From: an uncultured Erysipelotrichaceae bacterium
Lineage (GTDB): Bacteria; Bacillota_I; Bacilli_A; Erysipelotrichales; Erysipelotrichaceae
Assembly (NCBI GenBank): GCA_900315225.1
Contig: OMYM01000414.1
Coordinates: forward strand, 1 to 64,000
DNA: 64,000 nt
Reading direction: 5' to 3'
Under the pieces are notes generated by a model. The model was not told the origin of the DNA, did no database searches, and saw nothing but the letters and a program-made list of their open reading frames with translations. Each line of letters starts with the position of its first letter. Positions within the stretch are counted from its first letter, which is position 1. The position numbers and the translations under genes were made by a program. Positions 132 through 47,329 of the stretch are shown piece after piece.

Positions 132-158
132 AAAAGCCATGCTTTTTGCATGGCTTTT
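132..158 (-). terminator. Terminator of the P-type ATPase-like gene
   Basis: Stem AAAAGCCATGC / GCATGGCTTTT around a T5 loop. It overlaps the TAA stop of the minus-strand gene. The symmetric A and T tracts mean it could also back up the rRNA terminator. Confidence 0.8.
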
Positions 159-2298
159 AATGCGTCTGGCTATAAATGATATAGGTCAGAATATAAGCGA
201 TCAAAGCGCTTATATACGCTGGAAACGGCTGACTAATCAACAATGGGAATATGAGACCTGTCAACAAGGCAACGATGGCATGATAGCCAAGAACTTCTAA
301 TTGCGATTGATGAACTCTATTGTAGAGCTTCCTTGCCAGATTGATTGCTTCGAGATAATCGGAAAGTGATTCCCTGGCGATGATAATATCGCCTGAGGTT
401 TGGTCCATGCCTATGCCTACGCCAGTGACAATGGAAAGATCGGTTGTGCGCAATAATATGCTTTCTGGATTGGTTGTAATCAACCCACTGGTTGTATAAT
501 CCGTTTCTTCCTGGTAGTCAATTAACTCCTCTTGTGTTGGGTTTTGAAGGATTTCAATATTCGCGTATGCACGCTTGATGTTGATTGTTTCGTTTTCATT
601 TCCATTTGCAATAATAATTGGCTCGATGCCCGCAGCTTCAAAGCGGTTAATCATTTCAATGGACTCTGGAATGATGTCTCTGTCTGCCGCAATCAAGCCA
701 AGATACGTATTTTCCGATGAAAAAACCAATATGCGCTTTCCCTGCTTATATAGGTTTTCGGCGTATTCTAGGTGATCTGTAATGTTGATTCCCTTTTCCA
801 TTGCGTTTGCCAAAGAATTTACTTCATAGCTTGACAATGTATGAAGGGGGTCGTTTCCAAGCCGCGTGAAGCGGGCTGGCTCGAATGTGTTTTCGTGTGA
901 ATTCTTGTGGTCACGAAGGTATTGCGTAATTGCCTTGGCGATTTGTTTATCGTTTTTATTCATGAGAGCCAAGGCGATGTATTCGAATTTGCCTCGGGAT
1001 ATGCCATTGGCAGGTATAAAATCAGTAATATAGAAATTCGTTTGCGTGATCAATCCGTCCTGCTCAATAAATATCATGTCGGTCTTTGCGGTCAAATCCA
1101 TGGAAGTCACGTTTTTAAACAATATATGCGATTTGACGGCATTGGCCGATGTATGAACAACGGCAGAATCGGAGCAAAGGTTTAACGCCGACAGGCTTGT
1201 GCATGCCATAACGGAAAGAGCGCAGCCCAAGGCAAATCCAATGCTGGATCCAGTGAACATCCAGCCAGTGAATACAATCAACGCAGCAAGCATCATGTAA
1301 AGTAATAAATAACGGCCATGTATGCGGTAGGGAGACTGTAGCGATGTTTCCGTTGCTGTGTCTTTTGCCATGGTAACAAGTTTCATCATGGCGGTGTGAT
1401 CGCCGGTAAGCTTTGTGTTGATAGTGATAGAGCCGGTTTTCAGTTCAGTTCCCGCATACACATCCATTCCTTCCTTTTTCAAGACAAGGCTATCATCTCC
1501 TGAAAGAATGGACTCATCGACGGTTGCACTGCCTTTGATAACGGGACCATCGACTGGGATTTTTTCACCTTGGCGCACAAGGATCAGTTCGTTTTTCTGT
1601 ATGTTCGAAACATAGCTGACAGATTCATGGTAGTCTTTGTACACAAATGCTGTTTCTGGAATGCTAGATTGAAATTCCTTCCAGAATTGGGTTGCCTTGG
1701 CACGGGATTTCTTGACGATTGATGCAATGCCTGCGCCACTTAGCAAGATGCAGGCTGCGGATAGGCAGAAGAAAGAAGCATTGCTGTCGTTGCGAAGCCA
1801 CAGAGTGATAGCGCTGCCTATCGCAAAGGCTGCACCGATCGCGCTGGCTGCGGCTTGTGAGAACAAGATGGGCATTTTGCTGCGGAATTGCTGTAGATAC
1901 ACATCCTTCAACAGATACAAGATTACAAGCAGCGGCAAAGCGGAAATAACGGACGGGACAGGGGTGATTCCTGGCAGTAAAATCAATATCAGCGACACGA
2001 TGATCGGCACGGGATTGATTGAAATGGCAGGCAATGCATCGTCTTTTTGGTTTTTCTCGCCCACATCAAGTTTGAAGTCATCGTATGGATAGGCATGGTG
2101 ACCTAAGGATGAGACGATGTCAATGATATCAGACTCGCCAATGCGGTCAGGATCGAAAGAAACCATAAGTATATGTGATGACATATCGAACCTGGCTTTT
2201 CGAATTCCATCCGTTTTTTTCAGATGTTTTACCATCGCGTCAGCGCTGGCCTGGAGAATAATATTCTCTATGTAATAAGATCGCTTTAAAATGACCAT
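157..2298 (-). CDS. Degenerate heavy-metal (P1B-type) P-type ATPase, probable pseudoenzyme
   Basis: 713 residues with the layout of a P1B metal pump. An N-terminal HMA-like ferredoxin-fold segment (about 5-70) lacks its CxxC metal site. Paired membrane helices follow (about 95-135 and 145-190), then an actuator domain with VDESILSGDD (259-268; family TGES), further helices (330-370) and a soluble P/N region. Every catalytic signature is altered. DKTGT is IEQDG (411-415, Glu in place of the phosphorylated Asp). CPC is CTS (366-368). The HP motif of the N domain is gone (KQIAKAI, 451-457), TGDN is ANGN (564-567), and GDGxND is absent near 603-612. The frame is intact over full length, which argues for selection on a non-pumping role such as metal sensing or a regulatory partner; the role is unknown. 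It is monocistronic. The ATG is chosen because the HMA fold begins there. Confidence 0.85.
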   Translation of the reverse strand: MVILKRSYYIENIILQASADAMVKHLKKTDGIRKARFDMSSHILMVSFDPDRIGESDIIDIVSSLGHHAYPYDDFKLDVGEKNQKDDALPAISINPVPIIVSLILILLPGITPVPSVISALPLLVILYLLKDVYLQQFRSKMPILFSQAAASAIGAAFAIGSAITLWLRNDSNASFFCLSAACILLSGAGIASIVKKSRAKATQFWKEFQSSIPETAFVYKDYHESVSYVSNIQKNELILVRQGEKIPVDGPVIKGSATVDESILSGDDSLVLKKEGMDVYAGTELKTGSITINTKLTGDHTAMMKLVTMAKDTATETSLQSPYRIHGRYLLLYMMLAALIVFTGWMFTGSSIGFALGCALSVMACTSLSALNLCSDSAVVHTSANAVKSHILFKNVTSMDLTAKTDMIFIEQDGLITQTNFYITDFIPANGISRGKFEYIALALMNKNDKQIAKAITQYLRDHKNSHENTFEPARFTRLGNDPLHTLSSYEVNSLANAMEKGINITDHLEYAENLYKQGKRILVFSSENTYLGLIAADRDIIPESIEMINRFEAAGIEPIIIANGNENETINIKRAYANIEILQNPTQEELIDYQEETDYTTSGLITTNPESILLRTTDLSIVTGVGIGMDQTSGDIIIARESLSDYLEAINLARKLYNRVHQSQLEVLGYHAIVALLTGLIFPLLISQPFPAYISALIAYILTYIIYSQTH

Positions 2299-2584
2299 GA
2301 TAATACCAATTACTATTTTACCTAGAAATACAGTAACGTCAATGGAGGATTCAGGTAATTGTATCCCTAAAGAAACAATCGGGTGGCGTTGCGCAATACC
2401 TGTAGACGGTCATAAAGGTGTTGCTTTGGGGGATTTACCAGTACCTGCCTACAGATATAAACAGACCGATGAAAATCTGGCCCAGATATAGGATCGTTTG
2501 ATAGAAACCACTGCTTTGTTTTTTTGAAGCTATTGGCATGCGATATTTCGTTTATAATAGTAGCAATGATAATGAGAGGTGACC
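2299..2584. other. Divergent intergenic region
   Basis: Non-coding gap between the ATPase-like gene (leftward) and the M24B peptidase (rightward). A TATAAT at 2553-2558 is a likely -10 for the peptidase, with only a weak -35. A 49-codon frame from 2341 has no ribosome site and is not called. Confidence 0.5.
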
Positions 2585-4390
2585 ATGTTGGTTAATGAGA
2601 AAATCGAAGCGTTACGTAGACTCATGCGGGAAAAAGGCATTGACGTATATTACGTTCCTAACGAGGATGACCATTTATCGGAAGAATATACCGCGGATTA
2701 TTTTAAAAGCAAATCGTTTTTGACGGGATTTAGTGGCGAAGCGGGATGTGCCATTGTCACACAGGATTTTGCTGGATTGTGGACGGATGGAAGGTATTTC
2801 ACCCAAGCAGAAGGGGAGCTATCAGGAACGTGTGTCAAGTTGATGCGCCTACATCAGGAAGGTGTCCCGAATCCAATGGATTTTCTGATTTCAAATACAC
2901 CGGAGAATGGCTTGCTTGGCTTTGATGGGAATGTCGTTGGTTCACTCGACAGCAAGAGGCTTTCTAATGCACTCGCCAAGAAAGGCGCACGTCTTCATAT
3001 CGAAGATGATCTTGTTGGCGAAATCTGGGGGAACAAGAGACCTCGAATGCCTAGGCACCCTGTCTTTGTGCTTGATGAGAAGTATACGGGGGAGACCGCA
3101 CATGTAAAAATCGAGCGCGTAAGGGAAAAAATGAGGGAAAAAGAGGCAGATGTCCTTGTCTTGACTCGCTTAGAGGATCCTTGCTGGATGTTGAATATCA
3201 GGGGTGATGACATTGAATGCACTCCCGTCGCATATGCCTTTGCGATGGTGTTTGCCCAAAAAGTGCTTTATTATATTGATGAAGACCAGATAGATGGTCT
3301 GGTGCGTGATTATCTTGGCGATAACGGCGTGGAGATCAAGGCGTATGATGATTTAGCAAATGATCTTGCGTCTTTGCATGGCAAAAGGATATGGGTGGCG
3401 CTTGGATCGTTGAACACGAAGCTGTATTCTTCCATTGCGCAAGACAATCTAATCATCAACGAGGTTTCCCCCGTTGCAATGTTTAGGGCTGTCAAGAACG
3501 ACACAGAGCTAGCGAACACGCGGAATGCACATTTGAAGGATGCCGTGGCAATGGTTCGTTTCTTGCGCTATGTCAAGGAGAACGTGGCATCGGGCAAGAT
3601 GAGTGAAGCTATTGCCCAGGAATATCTGTATCGGTTGCGCGAGCAACAGGATGGGTATATCGAGCCTTCCTTTCCGACAATTTGCGCCTATCAGGAGAAT
3701 GGCGCAATGATGCATTATTGCGCAACGGAAGAAAACCATGCGATGGTAAAGCCAAGGGGGTTCCTTTTGGTTGATTCTGGCGGGACGTATTTCGATGGAA
3801 CAACAGATATTACCAGGACAATCGCCTTGTCTGGGTTGAGCGATGAAGAGAAAATGTACTATACGCTTGTCTTAAAAGGTCATTTGGCTCTTGCGAATGC
3901 CAAGTTTCTTCAAGGTTCCTCGGGGTATAACCTTGATATTCTTGCTCGGCAACCGCTATGGCAGATTGGCATTGACTATCAATGTGGCACGGGGCATGGC
4001 GTTGGGCATGTGCTTTCGGTGCATGAGGGTCCCCATGGCATACGCTGGGGGATGCCATCGCCATTAAGGCCATGCGTAGCCTTGGTTCCTGGAATGATTG
4101 TCACGGATGAACCAGGGGTATATTTGCCACATAAGCTGGGAATACGCATAGAAAACGAATTGATTGTCACAAAGGCCGAGAAGAATGAATATGGTCAATT
4201 CCTGGCGTTTGAAAACCTAACATATGTTCCGTATGAGCTGGATGCGATTGACTTGTCATATCTATCCGACCAAGAGATTAAACAGATCAACGATTACCAT
4301 GCGATGGTTTTCAGCAAGCTGAAGGATCGGCTGGCTGGTGCTGACTTGGCATGGCTGAAGGAGGCAACGGCGCCGTTGTCACGCGTATGA
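2585..4390 (+). CDS. Xaa-Pro aminopeptidase, M24B family (three-domain type)
   Basis: 601 residues. It removes N-terminal residues that precede proline and acts in the cytoplasm on peptides. Two creatinase-like N-terminal domains (about 1-300) precede the pita-bread metallopeptidase domain. The metal ligands are visible: Asp in VDSGGTYF and TTDITRT, His in GTGHGVGHVL, Glu in DEPGVY and RIENEL. Length fits the long (about 600-residue) XPNPEP1-like branch. The ATG at 2585 is preferred to the in-frame GTG at 2579, because the ribosome site AGAGGTG (2575-2581) covers that GTG. The stop overlaps the next start (ATGA), so exonuclease III is translationally coupled. With PepV, Pcp and PepC nearby, peptide use looks important. 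Confidence 0.93.
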   Translation: MLVNEKIEALRRLMREKGIDVYYVPNEDDHLSEEYTADYFKSKSFLTGFSGEAGCAIVTQDFAGLWTDGRYFTQAEGELSGTCVKLMRLHQEGVPNPMDFLISNTPENGLLGFDGNVVGSLDSKRLSNALAKKGARLHIEDDLVGEIWGNKRPRMPRHPVFVLDEKYTGETAHVKIERVREKMREKEADVLVLTRLEDPCWMLNIRGDDIECTPVAYAFAMVFAQKVLYYIDEDQIDGLVRDYLGDNGVEIKAYDDLANDLASLHGKRIWVALGSLNTKLYSSIAQDNLIINEVSPVAMFRAVKNDTELANTRNAHLKDAVAMVRFLRYVKENVASGKMSEAIAQEYLYRLREQQDGYIEPSFPTICAYQENGAMMHYCATEENHAMVKPRGFLLVDSGGTYFDGTTDITRTIALSGLSDEEKMYYTLVLKGHLALANAKFLQGSSGYNLDILARQPLWQIGIDYQCGTGHGVGHVLSVHEGPHGIRWGMPSPLRPCVALVPGMIVTDEPGVYLPHKLGIRIENELIVTKAEKNEYGQFLAFENLTYVPYELDAIDLSYLSDQEIKQINDYHAMVFSKLKDRLAGADLAWLKEATAPLSRV

Positions 4391-8305: not shown

Positions 8306-10522
8306 ATGAAAGCAGGTTTTAAGAGTCAGGTTAATAAATGGGAAGTGTTCGAGGTGGCTGTTCAAGGTCCCTCCAGCGGTAATCCTTTTGTCGAGCAAAG
8401 GATCGATGGAATATTTGCCGGGAGGCGTGAAAGCAAGATTGTCAGTGGATTCTATGATGGCAATGGTGTCTATCGGGTGCGATTCATGCCAGGATATACG
8501 GGAAGATATTCGTTTGTTGTCAAGGGATCGTTTCTGGAGTCTCCGGTTTCTGGTTCATTCGAGGTTTTGGATGCCAGGGAAGGCAACCATGGACCAGTGC
8601 GGGTTCAGGGAAAGCATTTTGTGCATGCGGATGGAACCCCGCATTATTCCATTGGCACTACTGCCTATGTATGGAACCTGCAGGACGACAGGCTGATCGA
8701 AGAAACGCTGGAAAGTCTACGGCATTCTCATTTTAACAAGATTCGATTCTGCGTCTTTCCCAAGCATTACGACTTTAACCTGGGGGAACCAAGGTCGTAT
8801 CCGTATGTTGGAACGCCAATGGATTCCACCGTCCTGACATCAGACAATTTTATGGAGTATACATTCAAGACAGAGGGAAATCACTTTGACATGGCAATGT
8901 TCAATCCAGTGCATTTCCAGAATATCGACAAGTGTGTGGATGCCTTGGAGAAAATGAACATCCAGGCGGACTTGATCTTGTTTCACCCGTATGATAGGTG
9001 GGGATTCTCTTCCTTGACGAAGGATCAAAGCGACCTTTATCTGTCGTATATGGTGAGTAGGTATAGCGCATATGCGAATGTCTGGTGGGCGCTGGCGAAT
9101 GAATACGACCTATTTGATTTGGACGAAAAAGCAAAGAAGAGCATCGAAGAATGGGATAGGATGGGTTCCTTGGTGAAAAAAAAGGATATCTATGGTCATC
9201 CGCGCTCTATTCATAATTGCCGTACAATGTACGATCATTCTAAGCCTTGGATCACGCATTGCTCGGTGCAGCGCATCGACTTGTACAAGGGAGCTGAGCT
9301 GACGAATGAATTGATAGAAAAGTATGGCAAGCCGGTTGTCATGGATGAATTGGCATATGAGGGCAATATCCAGCATGGCTGGGGAAACATCACCGGCGAA
9401 GAAATGGTTCGTCGATTCTGGGAGACCGCTGTCAGGGGTGGGTATCCTGGTCATGGCGAGACATTCATGAGCGATGATGGCGTTCTTTGGTGGTCGCATG
9501 GCGGCAAGCTCAAAGGCGAGGCGTGGCGGCGTTTTGGTCTTTTGAAGTCTGTCCTAGAGGAAGTACCAGGGAATGGCTTGGCGTGCATTGACATGCATTG
9601 GGATTGCGTGACGGGCGTTCCAGAGAACGAGGTTGGCGATGATGTCAAGTCGATGTATCTGTTTTACTATAGTTTCATGCGTCCTTCTTTCCGCGATTTT
9701 CATATCGATGACGATACATACTTCAAGGTCGATGTCATTGACACTTGGGAGATGACCATTGAAGACAAGGGAATCTTCAAGGGAAAGTTCCGCATCTCCC
9801 TTCCTGGAAGGCAATATGTGGCGGTTCGCTTGAGAAAGGCAAGCGAAGAGGACATACGCCTGGATGTGGAGCAGGAGGAATTTGTCCAGAACGTGGATGC
9901 TAGTGAACCGGAAATGGGAAAGGAAGACATTGACTATAGCGAGGTCGCTAGGCTTGGGCAGGATTCCGAGGGCATCGACAATCTGCTTGCCCAGGTTACG
10001 GATACTTTCAACGCTGACCAGAAGAGTAGTGAGGCTTCCTCCGATGATGCCAATGCCAAGGAAAACGAAAGGTTTGAGGCATATGAGGATGCGCAGCTGC
10101 TTAATGCACCGGTTAGGCATGCCAAAGAGATCGAGGACACGGTTGTCATCAAGACCCAAGAGGAAACGCGCGCCCCTTATGAATACGTACCTGCGCACAT
10201 GGCAACGAGAAAAGAGAGGGTGGCAGACAATCCTGTAAGCGCTGCCGCAAGAGAGGCAGAGAGTAAACGTTCCAGCACTGTTGCAAGAGAAACGGAGAAC
10301 AAGCGTTCCAACACAAAGCGTCTTTACAATACAGACCAGATATCGTTTGCGGAAATCAACGGATTCGATGATCTCAAGCAAGAGGTTTCCCAAGGGTATC
10401 TCAATCGATTGAACCCAAACGATGTCGGACGCTCTCTGTTTGCGCCTCCATCGGATGACGATGATATCAGTGATGATGTTACCCAGGAAATTCGTCCATG
10501 GGAGTATAGACGCAAGAGATGA
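8306..10522 (+). CDS. GH140/DUF4038-type glycoside-hydrolase-like protein with long disordered tail
   Basis: 738 residues. Residues 8-90 fit a DUF5060-type beta-sandwich. Residues 100-440 form a DUF4038 (GH140 apiosidase-like) TIM barrel with candidate acids E266 in ALANEYD and E348 in VMDELAYE. Residues 445-512 fit a DUF5605-like C-terminal sandwich. There is no signal peptide, so it should act inside the cell. Residues 513-738 are unusual: a very acidic, low-complexity tail with an imperfect 12-residue duplication (AREAESKRSSTV, then ARETENKRSNTK; bases 10247-10318) ending in a basic RRKR. I know no domain for the tail. The ATG follows AGGGGG. The stop overlaps pcp (ATGA). The substrate is unknown. 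Confidence 0.82.
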   Translation: MKAGFKSQVNKWEVFEVAVQGPSSGNPFVEQRIDGIFAGRRESKIVSGFYDGNGVYRVRFMPGYTGRYSFVVKGSFLESPVSGSFEVLDAREGNHGPVRVQGKHFVHADGTPHYSIGTTAYVWNLQDDRLIEETLESLRHSHFNKIRFCVFPKHYDFNLGEPRSYPYVGTPMDSTVLTSDNFMEYTFKTEGNHFDMAMFNPVHFQNIDKCVDALEKMNIQADLILFHPYDRWGFSSLTKDQSDLYLSYMVSRYSAYANVWWALANEYDLFDLDEKAKKSIEEWDRMGSLVKKKDIYGHPRSIHNCRTMYDHSKPWITHCSVQRIDLYKGAELTNELIEKYGKPVVMDELAYEGNIQHGWGNITGEEMVRRFWETAVRGGYPGHGETFMSDDGVLWWSHGGKLKGEAWRRFGLLKSVLEEVPGNGLACIDMHWDCVTGVPENEVGDDVKSMYLFYYSFMRPSFRDFHIDDDTYFKVDVIDTWEMTIEDKGIFKGKFRISLPGRQYVAVRLRKASEEDIRLDVEQEEFVQNVDASEPEMGKEDIDYSEVARLGQDSEGIDNLLAQVTDTFNADQKSSEASSDDANAKENERFEAYEDAQLLNAPVRHAKEIEDTVVIKTQEETRAPYEYVPAHMATRKERVADNPVSAAAREAESKRSSTVARETENKRSNTKRLYNTDQISFAEINGFDDLKQEVSQGYLNRLNPNDVGRSLFAPPSDDDDISDDVTQEIRPWEYRRKR

Positions 10523-47107: not shown

Positions 47108-47329
47108 ATATTGAAAATCTGTGAATGAGAATACGCCTTGCTGGACGGCACAGAGACAATGGGTGGGTGAGAACATTGACGAAAGGCATGGCGGTTGACA
47201 CTCAGGAGATGGCATTCTGAAACAAAGTAGGAATGCCCGTGTTCCGCGTTAAGGAAACGAGCGCATGATATATTCATGAACTAAGGTGGCACCACGCAAG
47301 CAAGCGTCCTTGGATCTGGACGCTTTTTA
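47108..47329 (+). promoter_or_regulatory. T-box leader of hisS-aspS
   Basis: The T-box sequence AAGGTGGCACCACG (47283-47296) precedes a terminator AGCGTCC / GGACGCT plus TTTTATTTT (47303-47329). Upstream, AGAGA (47152) and GGGTGGGTGAGAA with flanking CAATG / CATTG match the distal Stem I region. Lower Stem I pairs TGAG and CGCC with GGCG and CTCA. The 3' strand between these arms reads GTTGACA and runs into CTCA, so GACAC (47197-47201) contains both GAC (Asp) and CAC (His). Uncharged tRNA should favour antitermination. Confidence 0.85.

Follow-up and report, generated by a model that had tools for sequence, protein, structure and literature searches.

The question raised by this locus is what role is played by a full-length relative of the P-type pumps whose catalytic motifs have all been altered. 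The P-type pump cycle requires the phospho-acceptor environment, the Mg2+ acids, a dephosphorylating Glu and the His of the N domain. In the window (the whole stretch of DNA analysed, 64,000 nucleotides) the gene reads from an ATG through 713 residues with no internal stop. The features of the locus are listed below, with the type of evidence in brackets for most of them.

157..2298, minus strand: pseudo-P1B-ATPase gene, 713 aa (ORF, family alignment, orthologues)
2077..2298, minus strand: HMA-like domain, residues 1-74, CxxC replaced and S18 and D20 conserved instead (alignment and AF2)
1690..2076, minus strand: linker and first four TM helices, residues 75-203, AF2 helices at 97-210, among the least conserved parts
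1345..1689, minus strand: actuator (A) domain, residues 204-318, SGDD for TGES at 266-269, strongly conserved (Pfam and structure match)
1132..1344, minus strand: M3-M4, residues 319-389, SLS at 368-370 for the CPC gate (alignment)
1015..1131, minus strand: first P-domain segment, residues 390-428, EQDGL at 412-416 for DKTGT (alignment)
370..1014, minus strand: N domain and remaining P domain, residues 429-643, HP, TGD and GDGxND lost, G-K (520-521) kept
160..369, minus strand: M5-M6, residues 644-713, invariant Y-H (672-673) versus Y-N in CopA (alignment)
2315..2342, minus strand: probable sigma-70 promoter TTGACG-N16-TAAAAT, 16 nt upstream of the ATG
2579..4390, plus strand: pepP (aminopeptidase P, M24), divergent neighbour and locus marker beside the pseudo-ATPase

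An intact frame with P-type regions had been described in the first-pass annotation, and both the ORF reading and the profile scores bear this out. The window protein scored 90.5 bits with Pfam E1-E2_ATPase (PF00122; cut-off 28.1) and 86.8 bits with TIGR01494 (cut-off 62.3), slightly below the cut-off with Pfam Hydrolase (HAD; 25.7 against 26.4 bits), and under it with Pfam HMA (17.8 against 24.8) and the general heavy-metal ATPase model (180 against 346). Homology over the A, P and M domains makes it, in both descent and fold, a member of the P-type ATPase superfamily; by score it falls outside the CopA subfamily, since the CopA model TIGR01511 gave 138.9 bits, far under the cut-off of 397. 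The AlphaFold2 model (23-row alignment; pLDDT 82.6, pTM 0.74) has eight TM helices and the A, P and N domains. Its best match among solved structures was CopA 7r0g (Z 32.2, rmsd 4.0 over 606 residues); the A domain matched the CopA A-domain 2hc8 (Z 19.6, rmsd 1.7) and residues 3-73 of the HMA-like domain superposed on an ATP7B HMA-domain chain with rmsd 0.8. A CopA-like fold is thus predicted, a match that by itself says nothing on function.

The motifs were compared by aligning the window protein and its orthologues (23 members) to 20 intact CopA proteins. Most of the losses claimed at first reading were recovered in the window copy: L15...S18 stands where the HMA segment should carry CxxC, TGES reads SGDD (266-269), the phosphorylated Asp is replaced by Glu (E412, within E412-Q-D-G-L), HP is KQ (451-452), TGDN is ANGN (564-567) and the GDGIND stretch is TTNPE. 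In two cases the loss stood and the letters did not: the block aligned to DKTGT is EQDGL, not IEQDG, and the CPC positions are S368-L369-S370, the proposed CTS lying two residues upstream. Further changes at the Cu site had not been noticed before, namely Y-N to Y-H in M5 (672-673) and the disappearance of MxxSS from M6; the HMA domain that the CopA proteins carry at their C terminus is also missing. Hence the window protein has none of the features by which functional P1B-ATPases are recognized (DKTGT, TGE(S), GDGxND, HP and a CPC-type motif in M4), nor the M5 Y-N and M6 MxxSS Cu ligands of the P1B-1 type.

These losses are common to the family. None of the 23 members has CxxC, TGES, CPC, DKTGT, HP, TGD or GDGxND, so that sister orthologues with normal motifs were not found among them. 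Both HMA Cys are gone in 23/23, and the TGES Glu, the HP His, the Gly-Asp of TGD and the Gly and first Asp of GDGxND are each kept in 0/23; the Pro of CPC survives in a single member. The phospho-Asp position is occupied by Glu in 18 members and by Asp in five, and the Lys that follows it in DKTGT is absent throughout, Gln taking its place in 21/23; the first Thr of DKTGT is lost across the family as well. At the M5 site the family has His in all 23 members versus Asn in all 20 CopA proteins. Of 214 columns that are near-invariant in CopA, at least 90% of the members retain 22 and lack another 100. The kept residues include the structural A-domain positions D250-G251, G256, K274, G289, G299 and T302, as well as Y672. 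About 20 other columns are near-invariant in the family and unlike CopA, including S18, D20, H391, Q413, Y440, L461, E570 and H673, and the window copy departs from the family at two of them. The most divergent member, that of G033 (L045:9312-11453), has IYPCA in the M4 region and the TGES loop deleted outright, with an EQDD loop and Y-H still present. Because 23 orthologues share the pattern, chance is excluded as the origin of the motif losses.

The full-length orthologues were found by profile search in 23 of the 70 genomes searched in the genus (Erysipelotrichaceae), the window counted; each is about 700 aa long with an unbroken frame, and G078 carries the gene on two contigs. With a larger profile run over 316 genomes of the order, members scored 692-1068 bits versus at most 430 bits for all other proteins. 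The 246 genomes outside the genus yielded no further member, and the best non-members examined, including the next best hit at 430 bits, were CopA with all motifs intact. Among 80 matches from a genome collection, only five, all from this genus (uncultured Erysipelotrichaceae and Solobacterium sp.), were without DKTGT and GDGxND, in a short-pattern scan by which diverged members can be missed. The carriers with organism names are metagenome-assembled genomes.

Of the 22 other carriers, 21 have the gene in this position next to pepP, the two being divergent, and xth and pepV usually come next in the gene order. The exception is G077, in which the copy (L164:7361-9727) lies apart from pepP and is flanked on one side by an ApbE-like ORF next to Rnf-like genes and on the other by a mechanosensitive-channel-like ORF, as named by sequence reading. 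In the non-carrier loci read, the slot is empty of any pump, with pepP in most cases near nudC, and an intact-motif ancestor at that position was therefore rejected. A mobile or viral origin was likewise discarded, since a single-protein search of a viral collection found no encoding contig and the locus is syntenic. The neighborhood consists of housekeeping genes, among which no functional partner is visible. The site upstream of the ATG is probably a promoter, a consensus match that falls short of proof; sites like TTGAC[GT]-N16-TA[AG]AAT precede several orthologues, and 10 of 23 reach p <=0.03 in single-sequence shuffles.

Other features of the locus and the window were recorded separately. 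A 5S rRNA cut by the contig edge lies at 1-83, so the gene sits directly beside the end of an rRNA operon; a T-box leader (104 bits) is found at 47112-47314, and positions 8306-10522 encode an Apiosidase-like glycoside hydrolase that also has DUF5060 and DUF5605 and ends in a long C-terminal stretch of low complexity. In six species that lack the pseudo-ATPase, a RluD-like pseudouridine synthase ORF near the locus measures 777-939 aa versus the usual ~300 (L200:4032-6362, L208:2537-5353, L217:4531-7236; also L212, L213 and L216). In the three of these long ORFs that were scanned with Pfam, the frame runs on unbroken through Ig-like domains and a phage tail lysozyme domain, so that an RNA enzyme is, oddly, fused to a domain that lyses cell walls. 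The window genome (G000) is an assembly of 5.2 Mb in 591 contigs with a contamination estimate of 9%; at about twice the size usual for the genus, it could be a mixture of two genomes. In trees, both its pepP and its CopA group inside the genus.

That the gene is maintained and not in recent decay, as first proposed, is strongly upheld by the shared losses, the conserved locus, the single clade and the substitution rates. Close pairs gave dN/dS of 0.08-0.27 at dS 0.5-1.7 by a crude Nei-Gojobori estimate, indicating purifying selection on the family; the window copy itself shares ~32% identity with its closest relative, too little for dN/dS to be estimated on it directly. Pooled by domain, dN/dS was lowest in the P1 loop (0.086), the A domain (0.096) and M3-M4 (0.109), and highest in the first four helices (0.227) and the second P segment (0.231). 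In the protein tree the family forms one clade (100/100 support) beside the P1B-1 copper pumps, from which it appears to be derived or to which it is sister. Its branches are several times longer than those of CopA from the same species (2.28 versus 0.33 in the window genome); owing to these long branches the internal order of the clade is unsure, and because the family evolves fast the constraint on it is moderate. Carriers are scattered in the pepP tree, where at least six changes are needed; an old gene lost several times fits this distribution, and weak nodes allow fewer events. Judged by a conserved family, lost catalytic residues and purifying selection, these proteins would be classed as pseudoenzymes.

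Because the residues of the pump cycle are lost, that cycle should be impossible for the family, and E1-E2 pumping is inferred to be beyond its ability. A non-pumping job is probable, since selection preserves a dead but full-length pump relative, and selection on the A domain and the dead loop suggests a role in conformational change or in binding. The explanation that we favor, with reasonable though far from full confidence, is a maintained bacterial pseudo-P-type ATPase working in the membrane as a regulator or scaffold and not as a pump, with a conserved surface for a partner or ligand. The membrane core and the actuator and phosphorylation domains would be retained as a folded scaffold, while the residues needed to become phosphorylated and dephosphorylated, to coordinate Mg2+, to hold ATP in the N domain and to transport Cu(I) have been lost; the protein would sit in the membrane as a regulator or scaffold without pumping. 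The conserved surface, made of the A domain, M3-M4, the remodelled [ED]Q[DN] loop and the M5 Tyr-His, may be where a small ligand or a partner protein binds, and the bound state would be relayed onward by the A domain. Metal sensing through the HMA domain, one of the roles initially suggested, is weakened by the loss of both Cys in every member, leaving a scaffold or regulator as the best guess from that list. The five members that keep Asp at the phospho position count against the favored explanation. A broader proposal, that bacterial P-type pseudo-ATPases serve as membrane signaling or scaffold receptors in which the actuator and its conformational machinery are reused without phosphorylation and M5 Tyr-His is a new ligand site, is put forward only tentatively.

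The same M5 site could instead belong to a passive permease through which the core moves a metal or small solute downhill without ATP. The eight TM helices kept in the model, His673 in place of the Cu-site Asn in all members and P685 conserved in 22/23 would suit such a protein; this reading is nevertheless unlikely, as CPC and M6 MxxSS are lost and the cytoplasmic A domain is among the most constrained parts, which is unexpected in a simple pore.

Somewhat less likely still is a narrower version of the favored regulator or scaffold, in which the protein joins the cell's active CopA as a dominant or regulatory subunit. The check for an active pump in the same genome, suggested at first reading, gave a mixed answer: an intact-motif CopA occurs in the window genome and in most carriers, but it went undetected in G084 and G085 and is represented by a C-terminal fragment only in G083, all three being incomplete assemblies. 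CopA is also found in most non-carriers, so its presence does not track the pseudo-ATPase, and the two genes have no genomic linkage.

An active but non-canonical pump, such as human TMEM94/ERMA has been claimed to be, would rely here on the acidic residue (Glu or Asp) that opens the [ED]Q[DN] loop; this reading is improbable. The phosphorylation loop is highly constrained and its Asp is kept in 5/23, and for TMEM94, which has DKQGI and GSSANL and no TGES, Asp-dependent Mg2+ transport was reported by one group (PMC13322241); against this, most members have Glu, the Lys, the GDG Gly-Asp, the TGES Glu and the HP His are each absent from every member, and another group found that TMEM94 has neither ATPase activity nor Mg2+ binding (PMC12134183). 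A pseudogene or assembly error, to which the fast evolution, the long branches and the absence of the gene from some species might be ascribed, was rejected for the family as having almost no chance of being correct, given 23 open frames, the low dN/dS and the same substitutions in independent assemblies.

The routine label "heavy-metal-translocating ATPase" would mislead for these genes. A small, fast-evolving orthologous family in bacteria, with CopA of the same genomes as control, offers a test of the P-type fold without phosphorylation; in the open-licence literature, neither a bacterial P-type pseudo-ATPase family nor a P1B pseudoenzyme was found.

Among known systems, the best profile matches of the family are ATP7B and CopA. 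With CopA (P1B-1 Cu(I) ATPase, TIGR01511; PDB 7r0g and 3j09; human ATP7B 7xun) it shares the domain order HMA, MA/MB, M1-M2, A, M3-M4, P/N/P and M5-M6, but it differs in having neither the catalytic and Cu-ligand motifs nor the C-terminal HMA domain. The [ED]Q[DN]G loop is superficially like motif I of the HAD phosphatases (DxDGT); reversion to such a phosphatase was rejected as unlikely, since 18/23 members have Glu where the nucleophile should be and lack of the GDxxxD-type acids of motif IV goes with it. The nearest analogue is human TMEM94, a disputed case in which a P-type layout is likewise combined with altered DKTGT, TGES and GDGxND; the two are compared as co-members of one superfamily, the level at which their homology is known. 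TMEM94 is eukaryotic, has ten TM helices and keeps the Asp, whereas the family described here is bacterial, has eight TM helices, would be P1B-derived and mostly carries Glu.
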